From Halocatena salina (GTDB lineage: Archaea > Halobacteriota > Halobacteria > Halobacteriales > Haloarculaceae): 64,000 nucleotides of DNA. The notes under the pieces were generated by a model, which saw nothing but the letters and a program-made list of their open reading frames with translations, ran no database searches and was not told where the DNA came from. Every line of letters begins with the position of its first letter. The stretch's first letter is position 1. Shown in pieces: positions 17,225-29,287 of this stretch. The translations under genes were made by a program, and so were the position numbers. The stretch spans positions 372,001 through 436,000 of the forward strand of contig NZ_CP096019.1 of the NCBI RefSeq assembly GCF_023115355.1, in the 5' to 3' direction.

Positions 17225-17968
17225 ATGTCGTTGGAAGAGAAGACGTGTGTGGTAACCGGTGCCTCCAGAGGTATCGGACGAGGAATCGCCGAGGAGTTAG
17301 GCCGTGCTGGAGGAGACGTTGTGGTCAACTACCACACGTCCGAAGCACAGGCACACGATGTCGTCGACGCTATCGAGGAATCTGGTGGTAACGCGATCGC
17401 CGTTCAGGGCAACGTCTCCGAAATCGATGAAATGGAGGCGATGTGCGAGACGACTCGACGGGTGTTCGGACCGGCGGAAGTGGTTGTGAACAACGCTGGG
17501 ATCACGGCCGATCAGACGTTCGATAACATGACGACCGAAGAGTGGCAGTCGGTCGTTTCGGTCAATCTCAACGGCGCGTTCAACTGCATCAAGGCGTATT
17601 TCGATGATGTGTACAACGCCGATACGGGACGAGTGATCAACGTTTCGTCGATGGTCGGTTTGAAAGGCAACTACGGGCAAGCCAACTATGCGGCCGCAAA
17701 AAGCGGACTGTTCGGACTTACCCGCACTCTGGCCCTCGAAATGTCCAAATCAGGGACAACCGTTAATTGCATTGCTCCCGGATTCACCAAAACTGATATG
17801 CTCGAAGATGTCCCTAAAGAGATCCAAGAGTCTATTCTGGATCAGATTCCATTGAATCGGTTCGCAGAACCGAAAGATATCGCTGGACTCGTCCGGTATC
17901 TCGCAGGGTCTCGTTCCGGCTACATGACCGGGCAGATCCTTCCGATCACCGGTGGCATGGAGTGGTAA
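17225..17968 (+). CDS. Short-chain dehydrogenase, beta-ketoacyl-CoA/ACP reductase type (PhaB/FabG-like)
   Basis: A 247-residue classical SDR. The cofactor loop is TGASRGIG (residues 11-18), the structural NNAG is at 89-92, and the catalytic set is N114, S142, Y155 and K159 (YAAAK). The C-terminus GYMTGQILPITGGMEW is typical of FabG/PhaB enzymes that reduce 3-ketoacyl thioesters with NADPH or NADH. With acyl-CoA carboxylase and a thiolase pair in the same operon, a role as acetoacetyl-CoA reductase for polyhydroxyalkanoate, or a related ketoacyl step, is likely. Haloarchaea lack bacterial fatty acid synthase, which argues against classical FabG. Confidence 0.83.
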   Translation: MSLEEKTCVVTGASRGIGRGIAEELGRAGGDVVVNYHTSEAQAHDVVDAIEESGGNAIAVQGNVSEIDEMEAMCETTRRVFGPAEVVVNNAGITADQTFDNMTTEEWQSVVSVNLNGAFNCIKAYFDDVYNADTGRVINVSSMVGLKGNYGQANYAAAKSGLFGLTRTLALEMSKSGTTVNCIAPGFTKTDMLEDVPKEIQESILDQIPLNRFAEPKDIAGLVRYLAGSRSGYMTGQILPITGGMEW

Positions 17969-17972
17969 ACCG

Positions 17973-20002
<2,030 letters not shown>

Positions 20003-20003
20003 G

Positions 20004-21158
20004 ATGCGAGACGTCGCCGTCATCGGCGCGTCGATGTCGAAGTTCGGTCAGCGCGAGGCGTGGCTTCAGGAACTCCTCGCACAGGCCGGAACTGCCTGTT
20101 TACGGGATGGGAACGTCGATCCGGAGGAGATCGAACACCTGTACGTCTCGAACATGGCCAGCGGCGAGTTCGAAGGACAGACGGGCGCATCGAACGCGCT
20201 GGCCCACGATATTGGCGTACTACCAGCATTCACACAGCGCGTCGACCAGACGTCGTCCTCTGGCGGTGCAGGCATCTACACCGCCTGGCAGTCGATCGCC
20301 TCGGGAACGAGCGACATGACGCTGCTGGTCGGCGGGGAGAAAATGACCCACCGCTCGACGTCGGAAACGACCGACATCATCGCCTCGGTAACCCATCCCG
20401 TCGAGTACAAACACGGCGTGACGCTGCCGAGTTTCGCAGGCTTGACCGCCCGGCTGTATCTGGATACGTACGATGCGCCACGGGAAAGCCTCGCCACGGT
20501 GGCAGTGAAAAATCATAGAAACGGTGTTGACAATCCACACGCCCAGTTCCGAAAGGAAGTCGACACCGAAACTGTACTCAACTCGCCGATCGTGGCCGAT
20601 CCGCTTCGGCTGTACGACTTCTGTCCAATAACTGATGGAAGTTCGGCGCTGTTGTTCTGCCCGCTCGAAGACGCAGCCCAGTACACAGAGGACTACGTTT
20701 CTATTGCGGGCATCGGTGGCGCGACGGACACACACGTCGTTCACGAGCGGACGGATCCGACAACGATGGGAGGCGTCGTCGAGAGCGGACAACAGGCCTA
20801 CGAGATGAGCGACTACTACCCCGAAGACATCGACGTGGCCGAGTTACACGATATGTTTACCATTCTAGAGTTCCTTCAATCAGAGGGGTTGGGCTTTTTC
20901 GATCCGGGGCAGGCGTGGAAGGCCACCCAAAACGGAGAGACTGCCAGTGACGGGCAGCTCCCGATCAACACGTCCGGCGGACTCAAATCGAAAGGGCACC
21001 CTCTCGGTGCGACGGGGGTCGCACAGGGGTATGAGATATACAAACAGCTCATCGACGACGCAGGACCGCGGCAGGTCGAGGCGGATGTCGGGCTGGCCTG
21101 TAACGTCGGTGGGTTTGGCAACTGCGTCACGACCGTGATCATGGAGGACGAACGATGA
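20004..21158 (+). CDS. bktB: Beta-ketothiolase catalytic (alpha) subunit, haloarchaeal BktB/PhaA type with Ser nucleophile
   Basis: A 384-residue thiolase starting one base after pccX. The region RVDQTSSSGGAG aligns with the nucleophile loop of thiolases, where the usual Cys is replaced by Ser85. The histidine motifs ELHDMF and KSKGHPLGATG are intact, giving a Ser-His-His set like that described for haloarchaeal BktB. Such enzymes condense acetyl-CoA with acetyl- or propionyl-CoA to form PHB/PHBV precursors. The following gene encodes the expected OB-fold partner. Alternatively it could act as a degradative SCP-x-type thiolase. Confidence 0.8.
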   Translation: MRDVAVIGASMSKFGQREAWLQELLAQAGTACLRDGNVDPEEIEHLYVSNMASGEFEGQTGASNALAHDIGVLPAFTQRVDQTSSSGGAGIYTAWQSIASGTSDMTLLVGGEKMTHRSTSETTDIIASVTHPVEYKHGVTLPSFAGLTARLYLDTYDAPRESLATVAVKNHRNGVDNPHAQFRKEVDTETVLNSPIVADPLRLYDFCPITDGSSALLFCPLEDAAQYTEDYVSIAGIGGATDTHVVHERTDPTTMGGVVESGQQAYEMSDYYPEDIDVAELHDMFTILEFLQSEGLGFFDPGQAWKATQNGETASDGQLPINTSGGLKSKGHPLGATGVAQGYEIYKQLIDDAGPRQVEADVGLACNVGGFGNCVTTVIMEDER

Positions 21159-21529
21159 GCGAACGAAACGCACTAACGGCAACCCGATATGCGGACGGCA
21201 CTATCAGCTATCCCGGCCATCCGGTCGGCCCGAATGGGAGCGAACCAGTCGACACCATCGATCTGAGCGAACACACGGCGACGGTGGTGACGTGGACGAC
21301 CAGCACTGCAACGCCGCCCGGAGTGCGCGAACCGAACCATCTGGCGATCGTCGAGTTCGACATCGACGGGCAGTCGGTTCGCGCGATCGGCCAGCTCACG
21401 GACGATGACGTGGAGATCAACGACACCGTTCGACCTGTGTACACAGAACAACTCCGCGAACCCGGTGTGGGTATCCGTGAACCCGAGAGCCAAGAATGGG
21501 ATGGTTACCGGTTCGAGCCGGTGGAGTAA
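21155..21529 (+). CDS. OB-fold beta subunit of the thiolase
   Basis: A 124-residue protein that overlaps the thiolase stop by four bases (ATGA). It is of the DUF35 OB-fold class: TATVVTWTTSTATPPGVREP, then LAIVEFDIDGQSVRAIGQL, are strands of a small beta barrel. The zinc-ribbon cysteines usual in DUF35 proteins are absent; there is no Cys at all. Haloarchaeal thiolases of the BktB/PhaA type need such a partner for stability or activity. The four-base overlap suggests translational coupling to a fixed ratio. Confidence 0.8.
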   Translation: MSERNALTATRYADGTISYPGHPVGPNGSEPVDTIDLSEHTATVVTWTTSTATPPGVREPNHLAIVEFDIDGQSVRAIGQLTDDDVEINDTVRPVYTEQLREPGVGIREPESQEWDGYRFEPVE

Positions 21530-22650: not shown

Positions 22651-23508
22651 ATGACTGCCAGAGACGTGTTCGATCGGCTCGAACTGACTGATTACGAACG
22701 GGATGCGCTGATCGATCTGTTCGATCTCGGCCGCACGACGGCTCCGAACCTCGCTGAGGCGACCGGGATTCCGAAGGCACGCATCTACGACGTACTGGGT
22801 TCACTCGCCGATGACGGATACGTAGAGGTGATTCCAGGTCGACCGAAGGAGTACATCGCAAAACCGCCCGACGCAGTGCTCGATCGAGCCACAGAGAACG
22901 AACGACAGTCGTTCGAACGATTCAAACAGGAGGTCGAACGGAATCGAGAGGCGTTTCTCACGGAGTTCCAGCCGCGCTATGAACACGCGACAGAAGGCGA
23001 CCGACCGGCCGAAGAGCTGTTTCGGGTCGTTGATGTGGGAGAACCGAGCGAGTCCGGGACGCGGCGAATCTACCACACCGCGACCGAGAGCGTCCGTGTG
23101 TTGAGCAAAGCCTTCGAATATCTCGACCGCATCGAGCCGGCGTTCGCCGATGCGGTCGAACGGGGGCTTGACGTACGGATCCTGCTGTTGTCACCGAACC
23201 GACTCGCACCACCGGCGCGAGACCAGCAAGCGGACACCGTCGCTCACATCACCGACACGTATCCGAGCGTCGGAATTCGGTACAGCGATCGCCCGCTGCC
23301 GTGGCGTGGAACGATCGCGGATCCGAGCATGGAATATGACAGCGGGACCGCAATCTTGCTCGTTCAAGAAGACGAAGTGCCAAACCACATGCGACAAGCC
23401 GCGATCACCGAAAACGGCTCGTTCGTCGCTGGCGTGGGCCGGTACTTCGATTTAGTGTGGACTCACGAGAGCGACGAAGTCGGAGAGCGCCACGCCAACA
23501 CGCCGTAA
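22651..23508 (+). CDS. TrmB-family transcriptional regulator
   Basis: A 285-residue protein with the N-terminal TrmB winged helix: LELTDYERDALIDLFDLGRT, then IPKARIYDVLGSLADDGYV as recognition helix and PGRPKEYIAKPP as wing. The rest (from about residue 120) fits the TrmB effector/PLD-like domain, with FEYLDRIEPAFADAVERGLD. TrmB regulators respond to sugars or metabolites and control carbohydrate or central metabolism. Its position divergent to the LLM oxidoreductase suggests a local target; that is inference. Its 3' end overlaps the convergent glycosyltransferase gene by 46 bases. Confidence 0.85.
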   Translation: MTARDVFDRLELTDYERDALIDLFDLGRTTAPNLAEATGIPKARIYDVLGSLADDGYVEVIPGRPKEYIAKPPDAVLDRATENERQSFERFKQEVERNREAFLTEFQPRYEHATEGDRPAEELFRVVDVGEPSESGTRRIYHTATESVRVLSKAFEYLDRIEPAFADAVERGLDVRILLLSPNRLAPPARDQQADTVAHITDTYPSVGIRYSDRPLPWRGTIADPSMEYDSGTAILLVQEDEVPNHMRQAAITENGSFVAGVGRYFDLVWTHESDEVGERHANTP

Positions 23509-24527
23509 CCGTATCCGACGCCGACCACGGCGGTGAGGACGAACACCATGAGTAACTGTGCGAACCCGGCGATCGAGGGCCGTCGAATCATCTCGAAAAG
23601 TCGTCGTGGGATGAATTTCCGGACCAATTGACCCAAAAACGCAGACTCTTCGGCTGTCACCGGCTTCTGTCCGGTTGCTTGTCGAAGATTATTCGACTCT
23701 GTCACCGGCTTCTTGTCGATTGCTTGAGGAACTTCGTTTCTCTCTGTCGCCGTCGTGTCGGAAAGCAACACCGCCATCCCGCGTTTCGAGTAGCCTTGCC
23801 AGAACGCACGGGTTACGAGCCACCGCATATCAGTTCGGTATTCAAACACTTTGTGGGCGACCCGCGCGTCGGGGGTGTAGAACACACCGACGCCGTACCG
23901 GTTTCGGAGTCGTGCACAGAGTTCCGTCTCGCCACCTTGGAGCTGTTTGTTCCCCTGTCGTCCGCCGATCTCCGTATCGAACCCACCGAGTTCCTGAAAC
24001 ACCGCCCGCCGCATCGAGAAGTTAGAGCCGGGAGTGTTTCGGACCTCGCCCGGTCCGTCGGCAAAGCCACGATGAGTGACACCGATCAGCCAGTAAAACT
24101 CGGCAGGGAGAAACGAAGGCTTGTCCGCAATCCACTCCGGCGTCATCTTTCCGCCGACTGCGAGTGGATACTCGTGGTCGAGATCAGTATTGACGTCCCG
24201 TTCTCGATACGCCCGTGCGAGTTCGGCGAGCCACTCGGGGTGTGCGACGGCGTCGTCGTCGAGAAATGCTACGACGTCTCCCTGCGCGAGCGATGCACCG
24301 GTGTTTCGGGTGGCAAGCAGCCCCCGATTGGTTGCTTGGAGGCGAACCCGCACGTCCGGATGATCGCCGAACTCTGCTTGAACCTGCTGAGCGACCGTCG
24401 GGTTGCCGTCGCTGACGACGATGAGTTCGCGGTCGGAATACGTTTGGTCGAGCACGCTCTCGATGGCATCCCGAAGGGCGGGCAATCGGTCTTCAGTGTG
24501 GGTACAGACGACGACCGAGATTCGCAT
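23463..24527 (-). CDS. aglG: AglG-like family 2 glycosyltransferase with C-terminal membrane helix
   Basis: A 354-residue GT2 enzyme: RISVVVCTHTEDRLPALRDA, VVSDGNPTVAQQ, VVAFLDDDAVAHPEW (metal-binding DDD) and GGETELCARLRNRYG (catalytic base ED-like region). This is the AglG/AglE/AglI group that adds hexuronic acids to the dolichyl-phosphate glycan in Haloferax. AglG-level identity is a good guess. A C-terminal helix near residues 325-345 would anchor it. An internal 45-base tandem duplication encodes the repeated KPVTE/KPVTA motif. It is divergent to aglB with 98 bases between starts. Confidence 0.7.
   Translation of the reverse strand: MRISVVVCTHTEDRLPALRDAIESVLDQTYSDRELIVVSDGNPTVAQQVQAEFGDHPDVRVRLQATNRGLLATRNTGASLAQGDVVAFLDDDAVAHPEWLAELARAYRERDVNTDLDHEYPLAVGGKMTPEWIADKPSFLPAEFYWLIGVTHRGFADGPGEVRNTPGSNFSMRRAVFQELGGFDTEIGGRQGNKQLQGGETELCARLRNRYGVGVFYTPDARVAHKVFEYRTDMRWLVTRAFWQGYSKRGMAVLLSDTTATERNEVPQAIDKKPVTESNNLRQATGQKPVTAEESAFLGQLVRKFIPRRLFEMIRRPSIAGFAQLLMVFVLTAVVGVGYGYGVLAWRSPTSSLS
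23654..23726 (-). repeat. Internal tandem duplication (45-base period) in the aglG-like gene
   Basis: Two copies of a 28-base unit (23654-23681 and 23699-23726) differ at four positions and are spaced 45 bases start to start, which is 15 codons. In the protein they give IDKKPVTE and TGQKPVTA, with Q-A in front of each. The region sits between the enzyme domain and the membrane helix, in a linker that can tolerate change. Confidence 0.65.
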
Positions 24528-24625
24528 ATCCCTCCTCAGAGATCGATGGATAGGGGTGTTTCGTCTCAGCGGACGTGTAGATGGTTTCCAAAGTTTTATC
24601 CGCGTTTTTGCGTTCCACTCACCCA

Positions 24626-27520
24626 ATGAATCAGCGAACCGGGCAACAGACAACGGTGAGCCAGGAGCAGCTGTTGGAGTGGATGATGAAGTGGTATCAC
24701 GTGCCGATACTCCTCGGGTTGCTCGCGTTCATGTTCTGGAATCGGGTGCGGACGTGGCAACGGTTCGTAACCGACAACGGCGTGTTTTTCTCGGGCAACG
24801 ACGCGTGGTATCACCTTCGACAGACAACCTACACCGTCCACAACTGGCCCTGGACGATGCCGTTCGATCCATGGACGCATTTCCCGATCGGGACTGCGTC
24901 AGGGCAGTTCGGAACGTTTTACGATCAGATCGTTGCGACCGTCGCGCTCATCGTCGGGCTGGGTAGCCCGGATCAGGGAACGATCGAGCTCACGCTTCTG
25001 TTTGCGCCCGCTGTATTCGGAACGCTCACGGCGATCCCGGTGTACTTCATCGCGCGCCGGATCAGCGGACGGCTCGGTGGACTGACGGCGGTGCTCGTGC
25101 TTTCGTTCACGACCGGGGCGTTCCTCCAGCGGACACTGGTCGGGTTTTCGGACCATCACGCTGCGGAGGCGTTCTTTCAAGCCGTCGCCGTTCTCGGACT
25201 GATGGTTGCTCTCAAGGTGGCCAAAGAAGAGAAACCCGTGTACGAGCTGCTCATAGCGCGTGAAACCGATGCGCTCTATCGGCCGCTCAAAGCCGCGTTG
25301 ATCGCGGGTGTTGCGATCGCGCTGTACATCTGGGTGTGGCCACCGGGAATCATGATCGCCGCGGTCTTCAGCGTCTTTTTCATCGTACAGCTGTCGCTTG
25401 ATTATCTCCGAGGGCAGAGCCCGGAACACACGGCGTTCGTCTCTATCAGTGCGTTCGTCGTTGCTGGACTGCTCGTTGCCAGCCGGATCTCGACGCTTTC
25501 GTTCACGGCGACCGACTTCTCCTTGCTTCAGCCTGCGCTGTTGGTGATCGTGGCTCTCGGTCTCGCTGTGATGGCCGCGATCGCACGGGGATTCGACGCG
25601 AAGGGAATCGATCGACGGCTGTATCCGATCGTGATTCTCGGCGGAGTCGTTCTTACGGTAGGGACTGTCGCGCTCGTGTTCCCCGACCTGTATTCGTACA
25701 TGGTGTCACAGTCGCTACGTTTCATCGGACTGTCGACGACCGCCGCTCAGCGCACCGTCACCGAGGCCCAGCCACTCAGCATGGATTCGAACGCACGCAA
25801 CTACTGGGCCAGCATCATGAACGCCGCTTATGGACTCGCGTTCTATCTCGCTATCGTCGGGGTGTTCGTCGCACTCGTTCGGATCGTAACCGACGACGAC
25901 ACCCATCCCGAAAAGCTGCTGTTGATCGTCTGGGGGGTGTTCATGACGCTGGCGGTGTTCACACAGGTCCGATTCAACTACTACTTCGTGCTGCCAGTCG
26001 CCGTTTTCACGGGATATCTCGTCGGTACCATCGCCCGGTTTCTCGGTCTCGATGCTGTCTCGACGGTCAGCGACATCGAGATTCATCAACTGTTGACCGT
26101 TCTTACCATCGTCTTCCTTATTACCAGCCCATTTATCGCTGTTGGAAACTCAAACGCGCCCGGACAGGCCAGTTCACAGGGGATCGGCGTTTCGACGATC
26201 CAAGCGGGTCAGAACAACGCTCCCGATGGGATCGCCTGGCAGTCAAGCCTCTCGTGGCTGTCGAACGACACACCAGAGGAGGGACGCTACGGAAACCCCA
26301 ACGGCACAGCGATGGAGTATTACGGAACGTACGATCAGACAGACAACTACCAGTATCCGAACGGAGCGTACGGCGTCATGGCGTGGTGGGACTACGGTCA
26401 CTGGATCACGGCACGGGGCGAGCGTATTCCGAATGCGAACCCGTTCCAACAGGGCGCAAAGACCGCTGCCAACTTCCTGCTGGCCACTAACGAGAGCAAC
26501 GCGACCGACCTCATTGACGGTGCGGAGTCGACGCGATACGTGATGGTTGATTGGCAAATAGTGAGTGTACGCTCGAAATACGCTGCACCGACGCAGTTCG
26601 AGACGAATCACAGCATCACAGCGAACGATCTTGCAGTTCCGCTGTACCAAGAGAACTCACAGACAGGAATGTACCGAGCGATCACTAGGATCCCGACCCA
26701 GCGCCACTTCGAGAGCCTGCGCACGCGGATGTACCTGTTCAACGGCAGTGCGGTCGAACCGAAACCGGTCGTGTTCGATTGGGACGAGCAGCCAGTACAA
26801 ACTGAAAGTGGACCCGTGACGATCCGTACGCTGCCATCGGATGGTTCGAATCCGTTCAAGCAGTTCGACAACATGAGCGCTGCTCGAGAGTACGTCGAGC
26901 AGGATAACTCATCTCGACTCGGGGGGATGAATACACCGTCGGAGCCGATTCCGGCGTTGAAACATTACCGGATGGTCCATGTGAGCACAGAGACTGGTCC
27001 CCAGTCCGTCAACGGTCAGCCGTGGGTGAAGACGTTCGAGCGCGTTCCGGGGGCAACCGTAAACGGGACCGGACCGGCGAACACAACCGTGACGGCCAAC
27101 GTCACGATGCGAATGTCAAGTACAGGTGAGACGTTCACCTACGAACAGCACGCTGAAACCAACGAGCAAGGACAGTTCACGATGACGCTTCCGTATTCGA
27201 CGACGGGCTACGAAAAGTGGGGCCCCGAGTCGGGTCACACGAACGTGAGCGTCCGAGCGACTGGTCCGTACACGTTCAGCACGAACGCGACGAACGAGAG
27301 CACCACGGCCAACGTGACCGAAGCCCAAGTCATCAAAAACGATTCAGATCCAGTTACGGTGACGATAGAAGGGGGAAACCAGTCCACAAACGAAACAGCC
27401 AACACGAGCCAAGCAGTTGATAGTACCGAGATGCGCACTGTAGACGACGTTGGAGCTACTGGAGCGAAATCAAACACACAACGCAAAACCGAACACGAAC
27501 CAAAAGCGAAGGTGGCCTAA
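24626..27520 (+). CDS. aglB: Oligosaccharyltransferase AglB (STT3 family)
   Basis: A 964-residue GT-C membrane enzyme. The first extracellular loop holds FSGNDAWYHLR, the acidic acceptor/metal site; about twelve hydrophobic segments follow; then the catalytic WWDYGHW at residues 587-593 opens the extracellular domain, followed by NPFQQGAKTAANFLL. AglB transfers the finished glycan from dolichyl phosphate to Asn of surface proteins. The C-terminus is Thr/Asn-rich with many N-x-S/T sites and may be glycosylated itself. ATG 24626 is preferred over the earlier frame start at 24581. Its stop overlaps the DUF368 start in TAATG. Confidence 0.93.
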   Translation: MNQRTGQQTTVSQEQLLEWMMKWYHVPILLGLLAFMFWNRVRTWQRFVTDNGVFFSGNDAWYHLRQTTYTVHNWPWTMPFDPWTHFPIGTASGQFGTFYDQIVATVALIVGLGSPDQGTIELTLLFAPAVFGTLTAIPVYFIARRISGRLGGLTAVLVLSFTTGAFLQRTLVGFSDHHAAEAFFQAVAVLGLMVALKVAKEEKPVYELLIARETDALYRPLKAALIAGVAIALYIWVWPPGIMIAAVFSVFFIVQLSLDYLRGQSPEHTAFVSISAFVVAGLLVASRISTLSFTATDFSLLQPALLVIVALGLAVMAAIARGFDAKGIDRRLYPIVILGGVVLTVGTVALVFPDLYSYMVSQSLRFIGLSTTAAQRTVTEAQPLSMDSNARNYWASIMNAAYGLAFYLAIVGVFVALVRIVTDDDTHPEKLLLIVWGVFMTLAVFTQVRFNYYFVLPVAVFTGYLVGTIARFLGLDAVSTVSDIEIHQLLTVLTIVFLITSPFIAVGNSNAPGQASSQGIGVSTIQAGQNNAPDGIAWQSSLSWLSNDTPEEGRYGNPNGTAMEYYGTYDQTDNYQYPNGAYGVMAWWDYGHWITARGERIPNANPFQQGAKTAANFLLATNESNATDLIDGAESTRYVMVDWQIVSVRSKYAAPTQFETNHSITANDLAVPLYQENSQTGMYRAITRIPTQRHFESLRTRMYLFNGSAVEPKPVVFDWDEQPVQTESGPVTIRTLPSDGSNPFKQFDNMSAAREYVEQDNSSRLGGMNTPSEPIPALKHYRMVHVSTETGPQSVNGQPWVKTFERVPGATVNGTGPANTTVTANVTMRMSSTGETFTYEQHAETNEQGQFTMTLPYSTTGYEKWGPESGHTNVSVRATGPYTFSTNATNESTTANVTEAQVIKNDSDPVTVTIEGGNQSTNETANTSQAVDSTEMRTVDDVGATGAKSNTQRKTEHEPKAKVA

Positions 27521-28512
27521 TGGCGGAGAGCAGCTTACGCGAATGGCTGATCGTGTATCTCAAAGGGCTGTGTATGGGGGCCGCCGACTCGGTACCCGGC
27601 GTGTCCGGCGGCACGATCGCACTCATCACAGGGATCTACGAGCGGCTGATCGATGCCATCGCGGGATTGGATCCACGCGTCTTAGAACATCTCCCGCGAC
27701 TGCACACCGAAGACGGACGCGCCGCGTTCGTTCATGACCTCATCGAGATGGACGTTCCGTTCCTGGTCGCGCTCGGAGGCGGAATGGTGACGGCGCTCGC
27801 CGTCATGTCCGGGATCATGCACGCGGCGATGGATCAGTTCCCGACACCGACCGCCGCGTTCTTCTTCGGGTTGATCGCGGCCGCCGCCGTCGTACTCTTT
27901 CGGTACGTATCGGTCGATTCCCCGGGACGGATCGCCGCGGGGCTGATAGGATTCGGGCTTGCAGTGTACGTTGCGGGCTTCACTGAGGGCAGTGGTGGCT
28001 CCGGCTCGCTGGTGATCCTCTTTGGGAGCGGCGCGCTTGCGATCAGCGCCATGGTGTTACCGGGGGTCTCGGGGGCGTTCATCCTCTACATGCTGGGACT
28101 GTACGAATACATGAGTGGGCTGCCAGGAGAATTCATTTCCGAACTCTCTTCGTTCGTGGGAAGCGGTGACCCGAGCGCGCTGATCGCGGTCGGCACCCCG
28201 ATCGCGGTGTTCATCGGCGGTGCACTCGTCGGACTGTTCACGATCGCACACGCCGTCAACTACGCACTCGAACATTATCACGAGGCGACGTTGACGTTTC
28301 TGGTGAGCCTGATGGTTGGGTCGTTGCGAGCTCCGATCAGTGATATAGCGGCGAACGCTGGTGATCTCTCCCCAGCGCTCATCGGAGCGAGCGTCGTCAC
28401 CGGCATCGGAGGCGCGTTCCTGGTGATCGCTCTCGATCAGTTCACTGAAGACATCGAATTCGGTACTGACGAACAGCGACCGCCACGAACCGAAACGCCA
28501 GTGAACGACTGA
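27520..28512 (+). CDS. DUF368 family polyprenyl-phosphate translocase (PopT-like)
   Basis: A 330-residue membrane protein with about eight hydrophobic segments and two copies of the DUF368 signature: GLCMGAADSVPGVSGGTIAL at 16-35 and the related VLPGVSGAFILYMLGLY near 180. In bacteria DUF368 proteins (PopT) move undecaprenyl phosphate across the membrane. Its ATG overlaps the aglB stop codon, so the two are translationally coupled. I infer it returns dolichyl phosphate released by AglB from the outer to the inner leaflet. No experimental proof in archaea is known to me. Confidence 0.85.
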   Translation: MAESSLREWLIVYLKGLCMGAADSVPGVSGGTIALITGIYERLIDAIAGLDPRVLEHLPRLHTEDGRAAFVHDLIEMDVPFLVALGGGMVTALAVMSGIMHAAMDQFPTPTAAFFFGLIAAAAVVLFRYVSVDSPGRIAAGLIGFGLAVYVAGFTEGSGGSGSLVILFGSGALAISAMVLPGVSGAFILYMLGLYEYMSGLPGEFISELSSFVGSGDPSALIAVGTPIAVFIGGALVGLFTIAHAVNYALEHYHEATLTFLVSLMVGSLRAPISDIAANAGDLSPALIGASVVTGIGGAFLVIALDQFTEDIEFGTDEQRPPRTETPVND

Positions 28513-28586: not shown

Positions 28587-28593
28587 TTTTTAT
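28587..28593 (+). promoter_or_regulatory. TATA-like element of the DtxR-type gene
   Basis: TTTTTAT lies about 23-29 bases before the two close ATGs at 28610 and 28616. This spacing would start transcription at or just before the start codon, giving a leaderless message. The call rests on position and composition only. Confidence 0.45.
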
Positions 28594-28615
28594 TCAGGCA
28601 TCTCCTCGTATGACT

Positions 28616-29287
28616 ATGCTCAGTGACGTGATGGAGGACTATCTGAAAACCATCTACGTGCTCCACCAGGAGACTGGCACACAGGTTGCCACGTCCGCTA
28701 TCGCCGATCGGATGAACGTCACGTCACCAACCGTTACGAGCATGATCGACAAGCTCGAAGAGCGCGGGCTGGTCGAACGGGAGAAGTACAAGGGCGTCGA
28801 GCTCACCCCAGAGGGGGAGACGGTTGCGATCGAGGTCCTCAGACACCACCGGCTCATCGAGGCGTATCTCGCAAGCGAACTCGATTACGACTGGACGGAC
28901 GTTCACGAGGAGGCCGACCGCCTCGAGCATTACATCAGCGAACGTTTCGAGAAGCGTATCGCCGAGTTGCTTGGGGATCCGCGCGTGGATCCACACGGCG
29001 ATCCGATTCCGACGGCAGATCTCTCTCCGCCACAGGAGGAATCGGGCCAGCGGCTTATCGACTGTGACGTGGGCGAGCACGTCGTCATCAAACGGGTCCG
29101 CCACCGTACCGACGAGGAACTCCGGTATCTCTCCGAGGCTGGCGTCACTCCGGGCACCGAAGTCGAGATCATCGAAATCGCCCCTTTCGGGATGATAACG
29201 GTCGATGGCGAGCACGGACGCCAGAGCCTTCCTGATGAGATCGCGCAGCTGATCCGCGTTACGCCGGTCGCTGAACTCGTACAATAA
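28616..29287 (+). CDS. DtxR/SirR-type metal-dependent transcriptional regulator
   Basis: A 223-residue protein: MLSDVMEDYLKTIYVLHQET and MNVTSPTVTSMIDKLEERGL form the DtxR winged helix, HHRLIEAYLASELDY and HEEADRLEHYISERFEKR the metal-binding dimerisation domain, and IKRVRHRTDEELRYLSEAGV onward an FeoA/SH3-like domain. Such proteins (Idr/SirR in haloarchaea) repress iron or manganese uptake genes when metal is bound. A second ATG two codons upstream (28610) is possible. A strong inverted repeat follows the gene and probably ends its transcript. Confidence 0.88.
   Translation: MLSDVMEDYLKTIYVLHQETGTQVATSAIADRMNVTSPTVTSMIDKLEERGLVEREKYKGVELTPEGETVAIEVLRHHRLIEAYLASELDYDWTDVHEEADRLEHYISERFEKRIAELLGDPRVDPHGDPIPTADLSPPQEESGQRLIDCDVGEHVVIKRVRHRTDEELRYLSEAGVTPGTEVEIIEIAPFGMITVDGEHGRQSLPDEIAQLIRVTPVAELVQ

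Follow-up and report, generated by a model that had tools for sequence, protein, structure and literature searches.

Nearly all Archaea glycosylate proteins by means of AglB; dolichyl phosphate is the carrier in eukaryotes too. The donors of euryarchaeal oligosaccharyltransferases are monophosphate-linked (PMC8342417), and thus AglB would leave dolichyl phosphate outside, with no phosphatase needed. In the literature searched, no description was found of the archaeal return of spent dolichyl phosphate after N-glycosylation. In bacteria, DUF368 proteins are considered to bring undecaprenyl phosphate back to the inner leaflet (PMC12826051). The DUF368 homologue of H. volcanii partially complemented a V. 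cholerae PopT mutant, and the same study had pointed out the presence of DUF368 in Halobacteria and mentioned, in general terms, a translocation of dolichol phosphate (PMC9876793). A connection between DUF368 and AglB was not found in the literature searched, and a companion PopT paper (ref. 41 of PMC9876793) may mention one. The same job is proposed in bacteria for UptA of the DedA family (PF09335), which is a Pfam family unrelated to DUF368.

An aglB-popT Locus in Halocatena salina

In the window, that is, the whole stretch of 64,000 nucleotides of Halocatena salina DNA analyzed in this study, an aglB gene for an archaeal oligosaccharyltransferase of 964 amino acids (24626..27520, + strand) is followed by a gene for a putative polyprenyl-phosphate translocase of the DUF368 (PopT) family with 330 amino acids (27520..28512, + strand). 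AglB scores 865.7 bits against TIGR04154 (cut-off, 450) and exceeds the cut-offs of all three Pfam profiles PF02516, PF22627, and PF18079; the STT3/AglB profile match and the WWDYG motif in its translation place it among the archaeal oligosaccharyltransferases. The DUF368 protein, which was found by profile search to be single-copy in the 4.0 Mb genome, matches PF04018 with 199.9 bits (cut-off, 26) and has both glycine-rich motifs of the family, PGxSGxT and LPGxSG, which are invariant across 49 aligned sequences. Thus, the gene identities in the original prediction were confirmed. Against the NCBIfam models of experimentally named PopT proteins, the DUF368 protein reached 171.7 bits (V. cholerae-type polyprenyl-phosphate transporter) and 90.8 bits, both below the equivalog cut-off of 400. 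As judged from its sequence, it is a member of the PopT family and is not assignable to the same equivalog as the named PopT. The AlphaFold2 model of the protein (mean pLDDT, 90.8) contains two pairs of short helices where the conserved motifs PGVSGGT and LPGVSG lie. The motifs would coincide with breaks between short helices, in agreement with a two-repeat membrane transporter. No usable match to the protein, by sequence or by fold, was found among solved structures.

The stop codon of aglB (TAA, 27518-27520) overlaps with the start codon of the DUF368 gene (ATG from 27520) in a TAATG sequence (27518..27522, + strand). The shared A at 27520 is as originally predicted. Since other gene pairs in the window overlap likewise (17952-19565 and 19565-20002 by one base; 20004-21158 and 21155-21529 by four), the overlap alone is ordinary. 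The feature beyond chance is the conserved adjacency of aglB and the DUF368 gene, not their overlap.

A longer form of aglB starting from the ATG at 24581 was present in the ORF listing. A TATA-like TTTTAT (24594..24599, + strand) lies about 29 nucleotides 5′ of the ATG at 24626, which is the usual geometry in leaderless haloarchaeal transcripts. Thus, this element probably serves as the promoter of a leaderless transcript spanning aglB and popT, and the ATG at 24626 is more likely than that at 24581 to be the true start of aglB. Downstream of popT lies a gene for a DtxR/FeoA-type metal-dependent regulator (28610-29287). Since a separate TATA-like site, TTTTTATT (28587-28594), precedes this gene, the aglB-popT transcript is probably bicistronic. 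On the other side, a GT2 glycosyltransferase gene (23466..24527, − strand), recognized by PF00535, is divergent from aglB; by neighborhood comparison, 8 of 15 linked loci have a relative beside aglB. A second aglB is found on another contig of the same genome (G000:C4:143949-145184, L071), with no popT alongside.

Conservation and Phylogeny of the Gene Pair in Halobacteria

PF04018 is present in 289 of 292 Halobacteria genomes. I compared the places of PF04018 with PF02516 matches in an even phylum sample of 43 Halobacteria and 204 other genomes, among which DUF368 was found in 42 and 34, respectively. In 32 of the 42 haloarchaeal genomes, belonging to six families, the gene directly upstream of the DUF368 gene, on the same strand, is aglB; one further genome has aglB within 5 kb of the DUF368 gene, and all of the remaining nine, where the pair is neither adjacent nor nearby, have popT elsewhere. 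Among the top-scoring loci (30 loci and the window's own), aglB is upstream in 28 of 31, and these loci add a seventh family (f8). The pair is found, for example, in Halorhabdus amylolytica, Haladaptatus salinisoli, Halostagnicola sp. A56, Haloglomus irregulare, Halorubrum coriense, Halolamina salifodinae, and Halonotius roseus. Thus, the survey of aglB neighborhoods that the original prediction called for revealed a linkage not confined to close relatives. I also compared 15 linked loci of 20 kb each, drawn from six families. While aglB-popT is in 15/15 by selection, its surroundings are mostly reshuffled; GT2-aglB ranks second in conservation (8/15), and every other pair is kept in five loci at most.

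With start codons chosen mechanically, the popT start codon overlaps the aglB stop codon in 11 genomes; the two genes are separated by 0-6 nucleotides in 6, 38-58 nucleotides in 4, and 80-234 nucleotides in 14 genomes, all of the last belonging to one family (f3). It had been claimed that the overlapping genes are made together. Because of the f3 spacing, this claim applies to only a part of the clade.

The haloarchaeal PopTs make up a single clade (100/100) in a maximum-likelihood tree, and within it the aglB-linked copies mostly cluster by family. The unlinked copies consist of one clade of ten (100/98) and a few broken linkages. The linkage label requires 5 changes on the tree, compared with a mean of 17.3 when shuffled, and the aglB-popT linkage is mostly inherited vertically. 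As the PopT tree mostly follows the families, it fits an aglB-popT operon that would be ancestral in Halobacteria, with occasional later replacement, separation, or loss. A divergent unlinked PopT clade in f3 (L036, L037, L039, L040, and L044) has a conserved context beside a MutS-domain gene, and two genomes (G005 and G025) carry both this MutS-adjacent copy and an aglB-linked copy.

Two of the three Halobacteria genomes without DUF368 also have no detectable AglB. Both are fragmented drafts, in which a gap in the assembly may account for the double absence. AglB is present in the third (G021), whose aglB surroundings (L170, G021:C31) resemble those of Halonotius roseus (L172), minus popT. 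The profile result had left Halonotius roseus without AglB. This was rejected after a protein search found AglB there, with another popT directly after aglB, and AglB may therefore be undercounted in the profile survey. The second popT of this species lies in a tightly packed array (L079:5564-10969) after genes for a GT2/PMT_2 fusion, a GT2, and a GtrA/DPMS-like protein. By its gene content, this array points to a further pathway of dolichyl-phosphate sugars, served by a PopT of its own.

Proposed Function of the Haloarchaeal PopT

The best reading of the locus, and a reasonably probable one, is that aglB and popT form an operon and that the product of popT brings dolichyl phosphate back to the inner leaflet. 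On the outer face, AglB would take the glycan from a dolichyl-monophosphate carrier and attach it to protein, leaving dolichyl phosphate there, and the PopT-family protein encoded by the second gene of this ancestral two-gene operon would bring it to the cytoplasmic leaflet, ready for a new round. I infer that the substrate is dolichyl phosphate, that it is moved inward, and that N-glycosylation is the principal user; gene linkage indicates a common function only indirectly. The haloarchaeal proteins belong to the same family as the bacterial PopT/VCA0040 (DUF368, PF04018), with 30-41% identity and the same invariant motifs, while they lie in a clade of their own and below the NCBIfam equivalog cut-offs. 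In addition, the haloarchaeal carrier would be dolichyl phosphate instead of undecaprenyl phosphate, and the partner would be an oligosaccharyltransferase instead of cell-wall synthesis. The pairing would carry the bacterial model of carrier recycling over to dolichyl phosphate, and the conserved operon offers a testable candidate gene for carrier return in tractable haloarchaea.

An unlikely but not negligible alternative is that DUF368 is a general translocase of polyprenyl phosphates or anionic lipids for salt and pH homeostasis, which serves several pathways (exopolysaccharide, O-glycosylation, and other dolichyl-phosphate sugars) and whose place behind aglB would ensure joint expression with an envelope gene of housekeeping function rather than reflect a dedicated role. 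The near-universal presence of DUF368 in Halobacteria, unlinked cases included, and the second Halonotius copy in its glycosyltransferase array are in line with such a general role, as are the known enrichment of DUF368 in halophiles and the dependence of V. cholerae mutants on pH and sodium conditions (PMC9876793). In contrast, the linkage is specifically to aglB in seven families while the other neighbors change, which speaks against such a general role.

It is quite improbable that DUF368 is an outward flippase of glycan-charged dolichyl phosphate, feeding AglB rather than clearing its product. The genomic linkage would fit this equally. For the main H. volcanii glycan, AglR and Agl15 have the status of proposed outward flippases (PMC3871713). 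Like the DUF368 protein, they are assigned to the same pathway, at a membrane step that involves the dolichyl-phosphate carrier; unlike an inward DUF368 protein, they are proposed to handle the sugar-charged lipid in the outward direction. However, for the bacterial relatives of DUF368, the substrate is the uncharged carrier and the direction is that of recycling (PMC12826051). Moreover, haloarchaeal glycans vary widely, yet DUF368 is near-universal with its motifs kept, which suits an uncharged common substrate.

DUF368, AglB, and DedA Proteins across Archaea

DedA-family proteins are present in all of the 43 surveyed haloarchaea, with no consistent linkage to aglB in the loci examined, unlike DUF368. 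The DedA protein of the genome containing the window is closest to UptA, far below the NCBIfam equivalog cut-off. Outside Halobacteria, neither DUF368 nor DedA was found in 91 of 204 genomes, and therefore DUF368 cannot be a general archaeal solution. A complementary distribution of DUF368 and DedA in these lineages was also considered; it is weak (9/34 vs. 79/170, Fisher p = 0.037) and confounded by relatedness, and was therefore set aside. The control genomes of M. jannaschii, S. acidocaldarius, and M. acetivorans have an STT3 match and no DUF368 match. DUF368 thus does not accompany AglB everywhere, and DedA is a possible alternative in every haloarchaeon surveyed. The DUF368 protein had been called "the" dolichyl-phosphate recycler. 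The linkage expected of a dedicated recycler was found (32/42 haloarchaeal genomes, seven families, and a looser, separate linkage in Thermoplasmata), and the monophosphate carrier of AglB and the activity of an archaeal DUF368 protein in a PopT assay agree with the predicted function. The exclusivity goes too far because DedA occurs in every haloarchaeon surveyed, G021 has AglB without DUF368, and so do many other AglB-bearing archaea. The DUF368 protein is a strong candidate recycler for haloarchaea, not a universal answer.

None of the 34 non-haloarchaeal DUF368 carriers in the even phylum sample has an adjacent aglB. In four Methanomicrobia-like genomes (f30), aglB is 14-16 kb from popT. 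This proximity was rejected as specific; genes for a chaperonin, TiaS, a histidine kinase, and others intervene, as in housekeeping synteny, and popT is grouped with uracil salvage genes, which counts against a specific link to aglB. No such link was found for the methanogen DUF368 genes. In a class sample of Thermoplasmata, DUF368 is present in 13 of 80 genomes, and 8 of the 13 have aglB upstream on the same strand. Seven of them share the order aglB-AMMECR1-amidohydrolase-popT-inositol monophosphatase, and the eighth is without the AMMECR1 gene. In the maximum-likelihood tree, the Thermoplasmata PopTs cluster as a single clade (100/96) at a great distance from those of haloarchaea. Since the conserved block is larger than the aglB-popT pair, this linkage is only suggestive.

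The least probable account is that the aglB-DUF368 adjacency is inherited synteny without functional meaning and that recycling is done by DedA proteins: the ubiquity of DedA in haloarchaea, with a UptA-like one in the same genome as the window, and the larger housekeeping blocks of Thermoplasmata and Methanomicrobia would agree with this, but the genes around aglB-popT are reshuffled, and overlaps of one or four nucleotides are kept in several families. Returning to dolichyl-phosphate recycling by PopT, the fuller proposition, in which the operon is ancestral in haloarchaea, PopT is the main inward dolichyl-phosphate translocase, and the Thermoplasmata linkage arose separately, seems evenly balanced between right and wrong. 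If true, PopT would be the carrier-recycling step of N-glycosylation in these archaea. The Thermoplasmata block (L094 and L173-L179) also includes a PRPP synthetase gene, and its AglB is about 1300 amino acids long in most cases, with carboxypeptidase-regulatory-like domains in L094.
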